Shown here: positions 4,646-42,548 of the stretch, piece after piece
Layout of the letters: each line of letters opens with the position of its first letter
How positions within the stretch are numbered: the first letter of the stretch is position 1
Source of the DNA: Haladaptatus cibarius D43
Lineage (GTDB): Archaea > Halobacteriota > Halobacteria > Halobacteriales > Haladaptataceae
Reading direction: 5' to 3'
DNA length: 64,000 nt
NCBI RefSeq assembly: GCF_000710615.1
Contig: NZ_JDTH01000002.1
Location: 1,418,082 to 1,482,081 of the forward strand
Position numbers and translations under genes: made by a program
The notes under the pieces: model-generated
What the model saw: the letters and a program-made list of their open reading frames with translations, nothing else
Told to the model about the DNA's origin: nothing
Database searches by the model: none

Positions 4646-5836
4646 ATGCAGGACATCGTTCAAGAAGCACTGGAAAACGCAGAAAGCGAACAGCGCGAGA
4701 TGGACGCCGTCACGACGGGCGACGAGTTCGGTGACCCGCGAATCGTCATCGTCGGCTGTGGTGGTGCCGGAAACAACACCATCAACCGCTTGTACAACAT
4801 CGGCGTCGATGGCGCGGATACCGTCGCCATCAACACCGACAAACAGCACCTGAAGATGATCGAAGCCGACACGAAAATCCTCGTCGGCAAATCCCTCACC
4901 TCCGGCCTCGGCGCTGGTGGCGACCCATCTATGGGCGAACGCGCCACCGAGATGGCACAGGGAACGGTCAAAGAGGTTCTCGGCGATGCCGACCTCGTCT
5001 TCGTGACCGCAGGTATGGGTGGCGGAACCGGAACCGGTGCCGCACCCGTCGTCTCGAAAATCGCCAAAGAGCAGGGCGCAATCGTCGTCGGCATGGTCTC
5101 GACACCGTTCAACGTCGAGCGTGCCCGCACGGTGAAAGCCGAGGAAGGACTGGAAAAGCTTCGCAACGAAGCGGACTCCATCATCGTCCTCGACAACAAC
5201 CGCCTGCTCGATTACGTCCCGAACCTCCCGATTGGCAAGGCGTTCTCGGTGATGGACCAAATCATCGCCGAAACGGTGAAAGGTATCTCGGAAACCATCA
5301 CTCAGCCGAGCCTCATCAACTTAGACTACGCCGACATGACCTCCATCATGAATCAGGGCGGCGTAGCCGTGATGCTCGTCGGGGAGACACAGGACAAGAA
5401 CAAAACCGAGGAAGTGGTGCGAGATGCGATGAACCACCCGCTGCTCGACGTGGACTACCGAGGTGCATCGGGCGGCCTCGTTCACATCACGGGTGGCCCA
5501 GACCTCACGCTCAAAGAGGCAGAAGGCATTGCGGCCAACATCACGGAACGCCTCGAAGCGAGCGCCAACGTCATCTGGGGCGCACGCATTCAGGAGAACT
5601 ACAAAAGCAAAGTCCGAGTCATGGCTATCATGACTGGCGTCAAAAGCGCACAAGTGCTCGGCCCATCGACGCAGAAACAGGCCGACCGCTCCCGGCAGAA
5701 GATGCGCGACGTGGATGCACAGTCCTACGACGCCAGCAACAACGTCGAAAAATCTAAAACTGGCACCTTCGGCACCCAGAGCGACGGTGGTCGGGACGAA
5801 GTCGAGAAAAACAACGGACTTGACGTTATCCGATAA
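4646..5836 (+). CDS. ftsZ2: Cell division tubulin-family GTPase FtsZ2
   Basis: The product is 396 residues. The tubulin signature GGGTGTG lies at about 125-131, the nucleotide-binding GCGGAGNN at about 38-45, and the T7-loop segment NLDYAD near 227, so it is a catalytically complete FtsZ. The short N-terminal extension ([16 protein letters not shown]) and variable C-tail fit haloarchaeal FtsZ2, the paralogue that drives constriction after FtsZ1 has set the ring. It follows cdrS by three bases, and regulation by CdrS/CdrL is expected. Confidence 0.95.
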
Positions 5837-38697: not shown

Positions 38698-40518
38698 CTA
38701 TCCAACCCCGGTAGCGCGTTGTACGCTGGCGAGAACTTGCGCCGCACTCAGAACGGGCCGCCCGTCCTCGATGCCGAACAACTGTCGGAGAAGTAGGTCT
38801 ACGAGTTTCCAGACATTGTAGAGCAGAACAGCGAAAATGAAGTTGAAGAAGCGTAGCTCGTGGGATTTACTCGTCGTCGGGACGATGAAGCTCTTCAGGC
38901 TCTTGTAGCCGTTCTCGATAATCCACCGCTTCCGATACCGACGAGTGACTCGTTCCACGGCGTTCTGTAGGTCATCGCGGCCAGCATCGACGGGTAGCTC
39001 GCAGTTCGTCTCAAACACGATGTAGCGGTCGTGGTCGTCGTTTTCATCGGTACTGTCGTCATCGAGGATTTCTGTGCCGAGGAAATGGAGTGCCGCGTCT
39101 TCGCGTTCGTCGGTTCCTACGTCGATGCCGACAGTTTCTCCAAGTTCATCCCAGAGCGTCTGGCGGTACTCCCGTTCATACGACGACGTTTCGATACCGA
39201 CGTTACCTTCGTCACGTCCGTTTCGTCGGAGGTAGAGCTTCTTCCGGTCTGACCCCTGCACCGTCTTCTGGACTTCAACCTTCGTCTCACGGCCCGCACG
39301 CGATAGACGTTTCTCGGTTGCTTTCTCCGACGTGTGCTTGCGCTTCGGAATGAGATACCGGAGGTTTCGCGCCTCACACGCACTCTTCACGTCGTCACTG
39401 TCGAACTCTCTGTCCGCAAGAACGAGGTCAACCGCGACGTGCTGGAGTGCTGAATCAAGGAGGTCAGCGACGACTTCAGCCCGGCTTTCTCCACGTCGAA
39501 CTGGACGTGCATCGAGGACGACCGGGCACTCCGGATCGGTGATCTGGACGGTCGCCCAGTGGTAGGCGTACTTATCGTTCGGCTCTTTCGTCCCCATGAT
39601 GATTCCTTCGTGACCGTCACGGTCGCCGTAGAACCGCGTGCTGGTCGTGATGTCGATGGCGAGAGTGACCTTTCTATCGAGGACAGCGTCCCGCTTTGCC
39701 GTCGTGACGATGTTCCCGACCGCCGACCGAAGCATCTCGCGGTAATCTTCGACGGACTGCCCGCGTAGCTGGTCACGATGGTTGTGACCGAGTGGCGTTA
39801 CGTCCCGCGATTCGTGTGTAAATAGTTCTGCTCCCGCGTTCGCGTGTAGGTTCTCGCGTAGCCCGCAGAACGTTTGAAGCGACCAGAACGCACTCTCTGG
39901 TATCGTCGCGTTCGAGGCTCTATCGAGTTCCAGCGCCGGGAAGACCTCGTTTCGCGTGGCCTCAGCTACCCGGTCGGCCTCTCCGACTACTGGTGACGGC
40001 TGGCCGAGTCGTCCATCGCGGCGACTCTCGTTTCCGTCGGACTCGTCCCGTGCTGGCCCCGGTGCGTCGATATCGTGTTCCCGCGCAACTTCGGCGACCG
40101 CGTCGGCGGCGTCGAGGACGCTTTCGCGGAGGTCGCTGGAGAATCGTCGATGCCACGTCCTCCAGAACGTCGATTGGTTCGGCACGGAATCGAAGCCCAA
40201 CCGACCGAGTAGGAACGGGTCAGTTCGTAGTCGTCGGTGGAGAGAAGCGTCCGAATCCATCCCAAGCGTGTGTTTGAGAACGAATGCACGGAGAATCGCA
40301 TCGAATGGATACGACGAGTGCCATGTCGGATAGCGGTCACCGAGGTCGTTCGGGATGGGAAGCGCCGCGATGACAGCGCCGATATCGGCATCCGGGTCTG
40401 AATCGAACGTGGCTTGAGCTGACGCGCGGACGATATCGGGAAGAAGTGAAATCGGGTCAGTGCCGTCGCTCGCTACCGATGCAAGCGACTCCGAGTGCGG
40501 ATGGTTTTCGGGTGGCAC
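38698..40518 (-). mobile_element. IS4-type DDE transposase gene, apparently intact
   Basis: The product is 606 residues. A Cys-poor N-terminal DNA-binding half is followed by a DDE nuclease core: Asp289 in LAIDITTSTRFYG, Asp369 in VLADREFDS and Glu535 in RWIIENGYKSLKSF (IS4-like Y-x-S context). The core contains the usual beta-strand insertion. The frame is uninterrupted, so transposition may be possible. Coordinates give the coding region; the full element is somewhat longer on both sides. It flanks the halocin-like genes, marking an accessory islet. Confidence 0.88.
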
Positions 40519-40785: not shown

Positions 40786-41193
40786 TTACTCGGGCGAGTG
40801 AGTCGGTTCGACCGTGACGATGCGTTGTCGGTCAGTAGCGATGTCGAAGCCAATCCGGACGAGCATCAGGCCACCAATCAACAGCATAGCGATCAGGGCC
40901 AGTTTTGGGTAGATATTTGTCGGTGAGTTCCACACTTCGCCTAGTATTGTCAAGCCGACGAACGAGACTGCGGTTGCAAAATAGCCAAACGCGGCGAACT
41001 GCCGGAAGTTCAGCCCAGCGAATTCAAGTCCAAGACCGGCGAGAACGAATGTGATGCCACCGAGGGTGAAGAGTCCGATAAGAATGGCGGCGAGAGGGTT
41101 GGAAAGTAAAGCACCCACTCCGAAGATGACGATGAGTAATTGTGAGAGGATGATGTTTGCGATGCCGAAGTAGCTGAATGAACCTTGTTTCAT
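40786..41193 (-). CDS. Four-helix membrane protein, candidate halocin partner
   Basis: The product is 135 residues starting MKQGSFSYFGIANII. Hydrophobic segments lie at about 10-30, 34-55, 66-88 and 98-118, with a charged C-tail (FDIATDRQRIVTVEPTHSPE). No known family is recognised. It begins 47 bases after the stop of the halocin C8-like precursor on the same strand. This order is common for bacteriocin immunity or export proteins, so that role is proposed from context alone. Confidence 0.7.
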   Translation of the reverse strand: MKQGSFSYFGIANIILSQLLIVIFGVGALLSNPLAAILIGLFTLGGITFVLAGLGLEFAGLNFRQFAAFGYFATAVSFVGLTILGEVWNSPTNIYPKLALIAMLLIGGLMLVRIGFDIATDRQRIVTVEPTHSPE

Positions 41194-41240: not shown

Positions 41241-42119
41241 TTATACGTACTGGCCAACGCAGTGAGCACACCCGCCACACGCAGCAATGAGGGCACCGTG
41301 GCAAATCAAGTACAGGCAGACAGCACAATCAACTGCTCCGATTCCAGTTGGTGCATCGATACACGCGGGCGAACATTGCCAACATCCGCCGACACTTCCG
41401 ACACACCCACCACACGGTAGCACGCACGAATTATGCCATTGCGCTCCAATTTGATCCTGTACCGACAGCCGCTCGGCTGAGAGTTGGTCGGCCATCGACT
41501 TCATCGGGGTGAACGAGATCCCTTCGTCAACCACGACTGTTTGGAGGGTTTCGCTGTCCGTATCTTTGCTGTGTAGTACTTTGTAGCCAGAAATGTCGGT
41601 TCCTGTAACGACAGCGGCGTCATCCGCCACGACACCATCGACCTTCTCGACGACTGCTTGCTCACCATCAGTTGCATTGCGACGGAAAACGACATCAGAA
41701 GTGCGGCCAAGAAGTACAGCGTTCGTCCCACTCGGGAGAGATTGGTAACGCTCAGGGAGCTGAGAACGATCAATACTGCTAAGTTTCTCATCTGAAAACC
41801 GGAAGATGGCACCTGTATCGGTGTTTTCTGACTCAACATAGTACAGCATGCCGTAGAGTGTTGAAAATTCTGCGACTTGCAGTGTCTTTCCATCGCTTCC
41901 TTCGATTTCGTACTCCTGAGAGCCTTCTAATTTTAGTTTCGGGTAATTTAGTTCGGTAAGTATAGAGCGAACGTATTCGGAGCCTCGGGCCCTGTTAAGA
42001 CGATTGTAGTTTGTTGCTCCTTTAGCGACTACTGGGACACTAGTGAAGCTAGCTGCACTCGCAGTTGCACCGATTCCTTTCAGTATATCTCGCCGGTTCA
42101 GTCGGCTCTTTTCTACCAT
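41241..42119 (-). CDS. Halocin C8-like precursor with Cys-rich C-terminal peptide
   Basis: The product is 292 residues. Residues 1-33 are a Tat-type signal (NRRDILKGIGATASAASF). Residues 34-225 form a polar middle domain. The last 65 residues contain 12 cysteines (232, 236, 239, 246, 249, 253, 265, 268, 273, 281, 284, 287) in hydrophobic, glycine-rich sequence. The known halocin C8 precursor has the same plan: Tat signal, an immunity part (HalI) and a Cys-rich peptide antibiotic cut from the C-terminus. The Cys spacing here differs, so it is a relative, not C8 itself. I chose the start at 42119 because MVEKSRLNRRD gives a normal Tat leader. Confidence 0.75.
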   Translation of the reverse strand: MVEKSRLNRRDILKGIGATASAASFTSVPVVAKGATNYNRLNRARGSEYVRSILTELNYPKLKLEGSQEYEIEGSDGKTLQVAEFSTLYGMLYYVESENTDTGAIFRFSDEKLSSIDRSQLPERYQSLPSGTNAVLLGRTSDVVFRRNATDGEQAVVEKVDGVVADDAAVVTGTDISGYKVLHSKDTDSETLQTVVVDEGISFTPMKSMADQLSAERLSVQDQIGAQWHNSCVLPCGGCVGSVGGCWQCSPACIDAPTGIGAVDCAVCLYLICHGALIAACGGCAHCVGQYV

Positions 42120-42548
42120 ATACAATACAATATGAAATTCATTATTACTTAAATACATTCTAGTTTAAAGTACATAAATTATTATTAACAGACATTTCAC
42201 GAGTGAACTTCCCCGGAAAGGCGTTCATCACGCTTTCTTTCACCTACGCGGTGCTGACTACATTTTTCGAATAAGCCCAGACTACAGCACTTCTCCGACC
42301 GTTATTGAACAAGAACACTCTCCCCGAATCATCACCTATCATCGTTCCTGTGATTCAAACAAATAGACTTTCCCAATTGTTCAAATGAACTTGCGGCTCG
42401 TGCATAACTCGTGGATAGCCTCATCTTCTAGGAGGACTCGTTTTGCTCATCGCTCGGAGGATGTTTCTGTAAATGGTCGTCTCCGACGGTGTCCGAACAG
42501 TATCTTCCTCTTCGGTCTTCGAAAACAGTTTCAACGGGTGGTTTGGTA
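42120..42548. other. AT-rich intergenic region upstream of the halocin-like gene
   Basis: The first 75 bases are extremely AT-rich and should hold the promoter of the halocin-like gene. A short plus-strand frame to a stop at 42272-42274 reads SRVNFPGKAFITLSFTYAVL and may be the tail of a lost gene, perhaps a transposase; this is a guess. A 79-codon frame at 42385 looks non-coding. Base composition differs sharply from the core genes. Confidence 0.45.

Follow-up and report, generated by a model that had tools for sequence, protein, structure and literature searches.

A Tat-exported haloarchaeal precursor with a twelve-cysteine tail and a predicted nested disulfide ladder: a candidate microhalocin-like gene in Haladaptatus cibarius

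Results

Locus and precursor gene

We analysed a stretch of 64,000 nt from Haladaptatus cibarius D43 (contig NZ_JDTH01000002.1), referred to below as the window. The gene under study, the parts of its product and the adjoining genes are listed with their coordinates in Table 1. A further in-frame ATG is present upstream of the precursor start, at 42158; the start given in the table was favoured because a start shortly ahead of the RR pair is found in most relatives. The Tat motif of the precursor is NRRDILKG, and its match to the Pfam model TAT_signal was weak (E 0.0053, short of Pfam's cut-off). The middle of the protein is polar: residues 35-224 include 31 D/E and 19 K/R. Among the 65 tail residues are 2 D/E, 12 G, 3 His and no K/R, and the mean hydropathy of the tail is +0.90 compared to -0.45 for the middle. 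The cysteines of the precursor are confined to its last 61 residues (positions 232, 236, 239, 246, 249, 253, 265, 268, 273, 281, 284 and 287), and the probability of at least 12 Cys in a 56-residue stretch by chance was between 4e-13 and 6e-15 at Cys frequencies of 0.7-1%. For the oxidised peptide W228-V292 a monoisotopic mass of 6398.69 Da was computed. The sequence-only reading of this DNA had described a Tat leader, a polar middle of about 190 residues and a 65-residue hydrophobic tail with 12 Cys; the ORF, the composition and the recurrence of this layout in relatives confirm the description. A Pfam and NCBIfam scan of the precursor matched no family except Tat-signal models.

Table 1 Features of the locus and of related precursors. 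Positions refer to the window, except in the last row, where they refer to the loci named.
Feature	Position	Strand	Remarks
Precursor gene, 292 aa	41241..42119	minus	Stop codon 41241-41243; ATG at 42119; ORF calling
Tat signal peptide NRRDILKGIGATASAASFTSVPVVAKG, about residues 1-32	42023..42119	minus	RR nearly invariant in the A1 profile; weak PF10518 match
Middle domain, about residues 36-225, candidate immunity/chaperone part	41445..42015	minus	AF2 model: helix-loop-helix, then beta-rich domain
12-Cys C-terminal tail W228-V292, the peptide predicted for a cut after GAQ	41244..41438	minus	Putative cut site, from linker motif
135-aa four-TM membrane protein, candidate for immunity or an accessory role (uncertain link)	40786..41193	minus	48 nt downstream of precursor
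DDE transposase gene (DUF772/DDE_Tnp_1)	38698-40518	minus	Next to four-TM gene
GGC..TW-like N-terminal extensions	L010 about 1350-1480; L019 about 2430-2529; L049 about 2260-2385

An AF2 model of the full protein, for which only 4 sequences were used, had pLDDT values mostly of 70-87 over about residues 41-150, with one block at 54. Helices were predicted at residues 38-45 and 48-56, ahead of a beta-rich domain, and the blocks covering residues 41-60 had pLDDT 84-87. A PDB fold search with the whole model gave a best Z of 5.5 (fetuin-B, cystatin-like), which is below significance, and with the tail model it gave one chain at an uninformative Z of 3.2. Nothing significant was obtained from a PDB sequence search, whose matches were mostly to signal peptides.

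Relatives in haloarchaea

Of 391 haloarchaeal genomes searched at the protein level, 39 gave matches. A profile was then available from 33 family members, the window protein and 32 relatives (A1 in Table 1); searching with it brought more full-length members, most of its 215 genome hits being Tat-signal matches only. Family-level searches supplied more members, some of them in the window's own genus (Haladaptatus), and the final phylum-wide sample, which mostly repeated genomes searched before, contained no new ones. In total, about 60 relatives across haloarchaea share the precursor layout, and for this reason we dismissed a chance origin. The precursor gene is real and conserved, with the same layout seen in tens of further haloarchaeal genomes.

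A scan of genome contigs with the window protein as single query returned no match. The 33-row alignment was too diverse to serve as a pattern-search query, and a subset of 6 rows was used instead. With it two named hosts came up, Natronolimnohabitans sp. A-GB9, which has two back-to-back members, and Halocatena pleomorpha. No member was found in the viral contigs searched, and the plasmid records searched gave two distant matches. Some genomes hold several copies (six matches in genome G113), and broken copies, either frameshifted, stop-interrupted or IS-cut, are present as well. A Pro-rich extension follows the last Cys in some relatives, where the tail is not the extreme C-terminus.

Gene neighbourhood

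Small ORFs with 2-4 TM segments lie directly downstream of 11 of 47 family genes and of 7 of 21 halocin C8-like genes, compared to 15 of 305 control ORFs. Fisher's test gave 1.3e-4 for the family and 1.5e-4 for the halocin C8-like genes, with other long ORFs of the same loci as controls, some dependence among the members and mechanical ORF calling. We considered the four-TM protein of the window as the cognate immunity protein and set this assignment aside, since the protein belongs to a broad four-TM family found elsewhere mostly beside other genes. Proteins weakly similar to it adjoin members in loci L099 and L155.

Five loci have the gene of a QPEYTG protein of about 280 aa near family members, and two have it near halocin C8-like genes, in one case as a fragment. 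The protein has an N-terminal membrane stretch and the motif QPEYTGENRC..CT, and was seen in loci L097, L098, L099, L106, L109 and L140. One 16-kb stretch, in L099, holds a member of each family, the present one and the halocin C8-like one. The QPEYTG gene is absent from the 64-kb window and from the surroundings of the verified halocin C8 genes (L131-L133); copies lie elsewhere in the genome of the window, at G000:C5:48763-49551 and G000:C2:82021-82743 (L151 and L152), one of which has an internal TAA. The remaining neighbours in the window are ordinary and include genes for a DHH/DHHA2 phosphoesterase, an Lrp/AsnC regulator, a RIO kinase and ribosomal protein L15e.

Comparison with halocin C8

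The sequence-only reading had called the precursor halocin C8-like and named a search with the halocin C8-like model as a check. As a positive control, the model TIGR04449 (cut-off 24 bits) was run against the mature halocin C8 sequence and gave 61.5 bits (1e-16). The control is valid because this sequence occurs letter for letter in L034, a genome fetched with TIGR04449. With the same model no match was listed for the window protein or its tail at E up to 10, and none of the 33 family members gave a match at E<1. A Pfam scan of these 33 members returned no credible domain beyond the Tat signal. The resemblance thus holds for the architecture and not for the family: there is no TIGR04449 match, and the profile similarity of the tails does not rise above a column-permutation control. 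The sequence-only reading had listed a lack of tail similarity to halocin C8-like domains as refuting its view; this result counts against family membership, though not against a similar function.

The permutation control was applied to an hhalign comparison of the two families. With the Tat signal and tail included, the profiles aligned at 97% probability; with the tail columns shuffled, scores reached up to 80.3 (median 65.9) compared to 80.1 observed. Without the Tat signal the probability was 27%, and one of 60 shuffles scored higher, while the tail alone gave 0.4% and the middle alone 0.6%. We attribute the figure of 97% to the Tat signal plus the Cys/Gly-rich tails, and homology to halocin C8 on this basis was dropped because column-permuted tails score equally.

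Halocin C8 is matured out of a Tat-exported precursor (PMC11509114), as its C-terminal fragment. The immunity part of that precursor is HalI, whose N-terminal helix-loop-helix is essential for immunity by the title of a 2008 paper of Mei et al. (cited in PMC11509114). The precursor ProC8 (HalI + HalC8; TIGR04449) likewise has a Tat signal, a polar middle of about 190 aa and a C-terminal hydrophobic, Cys-rich tail, and small membrane ORFs lie downstream of halocin C8-like genes as they do in the present family. The cysteine map differs, as the sequence-only reading had proposed: ProC8 has 10 Cys spaced 2,7,3,7 / 13 / 7,8,8,5 or similar, whereas the window protein has 12 Cys with the near-palindromic spacing 3,2,6,2,3 / 11 / 2,4,7,2,2. 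By sequence, then, the precursor family is separate from halocin C8 and alike in layout, and the two may have a distant common descent.

The window protein could be a true member of the halocin C8 family, derived from the same ancestral precursor and diverged past profile recognition. We consider this possible but rather doubtful; it is compatible with the function proposed below. The two families have the same architecture and shared neighbours, a helix-loop-helix is predicted where that of HalI is reported (a match in position that is suggestive only), and the paired cysteine losses of halocin C8-like tails (C4-C7, C1-C10) are compatible with the same nested map as that described in the next section. 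Furthermore, two family members and one halocin C8-like precursor carry an N-terminal extension with a GGC..TW-like motif ahead of the Tat RR, possibly an add-on segment common to both families. However, none of the 33 members matches TIGR04449, the middle domains without Tat signal are not significantly alignable, and the similarity of the tails equals that of shuffled controls.

A second model, NCBIfam NF040679 'halocin C8 precursor-like protein', scored halocin C8 at just 7.6 bits. The short name of this model, halocin_of_epi, hints at an epimerase-linked variant.

Cysteine losses and predicted disulfide pairing

The tails were aligned and reduced to 48 at less than 70% identity; ten others, broken or strongly divergent, were excluded before counting. 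The number of Cys is even in all 48. With the 12 Cys of the window protein as reference, C2 and C11 are jointly missing in 15 rows (16 absences of each), C4 and C9 are missing together in 5 of 5 cases and C6 and C7 in 6 of 6, and C1 and C12 are jointly missing in 3 rows (3 and 4 absences, respectively). C3, C5, C8 and C10 are invariant. Only two rows are discordant, namely L018, the end of which looks frameshifted, and L183, which aligned poorly. When columns were permuted independently, the paired-loss pattern was never reached in 20000 tries (P<1/20000). Among the 10395 possible pairings of 12 Cys none beats the nested one; two tie with it, and these depart from it in invariant Cys only.

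We also placed the losses on a tree built from only the middle domain, with the tail omitted and the two discordant rows excluded. On this poorly resolved tree there were about 13 separate changes, at least 7+2+3+1 (C2-C11, C4-C9, C6-C7 and C1-C12, respectively), and partners always changed together. Restricting the count to well supported branches gave 7 independent comparisons, all concordant; the single pairs were too few for a significant sign test.

The even Cys counts and the paired losses across the arms point to a fully nested disulfide ladder in which cysteine i pairs with 13-i. We infer six nested disulfides, C1-C12, C2-C11, C3-C10, C4-C9, C5-C8 and C6-C7, which would staple a helical hairpin. 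The invariant pairs C3-C10 and C5-C8 are assigned by nesting alone, because no other uncrossed choice keeps the arms paired. Structure prediction had been suggested as a check on the pairs. For the isolated tail, AF2 gave a four-helix model of low confidence (pLDDT 59) that turns at PTGIGAV and is compatible with the nested map, in which helix A would go with D and B with C.

Alpha-hairpinins and CHCH twin CxnC proteins consist of two antiparallel helical arms joined by nested disulfides. The present tails would resemble them in fold; those proteins have two rungs, whereas the present tails would have up to six and are archaeal and Tat-exported.

Halocin C8-like tails share the even number of Cys (all 26 tails). 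C4 and C7 are lost in one clade of these, and C1 and C10 are also lost in one row. The nested map is compatible with these losses, yet 15 of 945 pairings fit equally. The disulfides of halocin C8 may be C1-C10, C2-C9, C3-C8, C4-C7 and C5-C6, as a prediction and not as evidence; no disulfide map of halocin C8 was found in the open literature.

Discussion

Proposed function

On balance, with modest confidence, we favour the reading that the gene encodes a secreted precursor that releases a cystine-ladder, microhalocin-like antimicrobial peptide. The gene, its layout, its family and the paired losses are observed, and the disulfide pairing is read from those losses. The precursor would be exported via the Tat pathway. 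Outside the cell, the 12 Cys of the tail would form six nested disulfides, from C1-C12 to C6-C7, so that its short helices are stapled together about the APTGIGAV turn, giving a hydrophobic hairpin that is uncharged and withstands proteases. The linker would be cut, probably near IGAQ/WHNSC, by an extracellular protease such as a halolysin, and the freed ~65 residues would attack competing haloarchaea, with the membrane as the probable site of action. The middle domain would hold the tail inactive and/or confer self-immunity, as HalI does, and the downstream four-TM protein may add immunity. A motif [VILFA]x[ATSVPI]Q precedes the first Cys in 13 of 32 cases compared to about 3% in the background; it was noticed before it was counted, and we take it as a hint only of a cleavage linker.

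Cleavage, killing and immunity are proposed by analogy, the models being halocin C8 and two protease-activated precursors, HalH4 and HapP. HalH4 is a halocin precursor activated by the serine protease HlyR4, and the N-terminal helices of HapP (HFX_0892) are active after protease cleavage (PMC12893001). Both are secreted precursors that need an extracellular protease, which for the present protein is only supposed. The active part of HapP is N-terminal, unlike the C-terminal peptide proposed here. By sequence, the present family has no significant relation to any proven halocin.

The protein might instead stay whole, with the stapled hairpin acting as a surface anchor or as an adhesion or signalling module, and no killing. 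The secreted protein is conserved and in every case carries the tail at its C-terminus or close to it, which would suit such a role. However, the tails are very variable on a recognisable, related precursor, tandem and decaying copies are common, and small membrane genes lie downstream; these traits are usual for antagonism genes, none of them being proof, and we regard a whole-protein role as unlikely.

The sequence-only reading had mentioned that the CxxC and CGGC pairs could mean metal binding. Copper storage proteins (Csp) are exported by Tat and carry stripes of Cys on their helices. The tail would then be a Tat-exported helical module that binds copper or zinc through CxxC/CxxxC thiolate ligands, and the Cys at i, i+3/4 and i+7 on its predicted helices, plus the Tat signal, do recall Csp. 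Metal sites would be expected to lose whole sites or to tolerate single losses; the losses observed here, which remove one Cys per hairpin arm and not both of a CxxC motif, and the even counts in 48 of 48 tails favour disulfides over ligand clusters. The tail has few His, and a Pfam scan of the 33 members for a metal-binding family of the copper storage type gave none at E<0.1. Unlike Csp, the present family is without such a Pfam match and loses its Cys in cross-arm pairs. Altogether, metal binding seems quite improbable. We give hardly any credence to a last alternative, in which halolysin frees an active N-terminal helical region and the Cys tail just stabilises the protein: HapP works through its N-terminal helices and the present middle also starts with two, but here these helices are within a folded domain, and the diversification sits in the tail.

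Returning to the cystine-ladder peptide, we consider it an evenly balanced question whether the relatives form a large haloarchaeal microhalocin family, unmatched in the searched Pfam/NCBIfam copies, with a nested ladder of five to six rungs, each coming and going as a unit in evolution. Sequences are available for few archaeal antimicrobial peptides, and we found no disulfide map for any Cys-rich one. The analysis yields a whole family rather than one lead, together with candidate immunity genes and a predicted mass to look for, and its prediction of disulfide connectivity comes from evolution, not from modelling. Helical hairpins that are uncharged and stapled by Cys could be highly stable as peptides and offer a new scaffold.

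Copies and possible mobility

The GC content of the precursor gene is 51.4% compared to 58.8% in the window, and only 2.8% of equal-sized windows are so low. This AT-richness and the IS transposase past the next downstream gene make a recent arrival of the precursor gene possible. The back-to-back pair of Natronolimnohabitans sp. A-GB9 (L155:2443-4385) consists of two distinct precursors, with 12 and 14 Cys, that are divergently transcribed on either side of a 74-nt gap, with a four-TM gene adjoining. Decayed copies were seen in L120, L177, L018 and L125, with a frameshift, an internal TGA, an apparently frameshifted tail end and an unrecognisable N-terminal part, respectively, the last of these sitting beside a transposase-like ORF. 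In L130 an 89-aa ORF (5284-5553, plus strand) encodes a 12-Cys tail alone, without a precursor, and a transposase-like ORF lies about 2 kb off.
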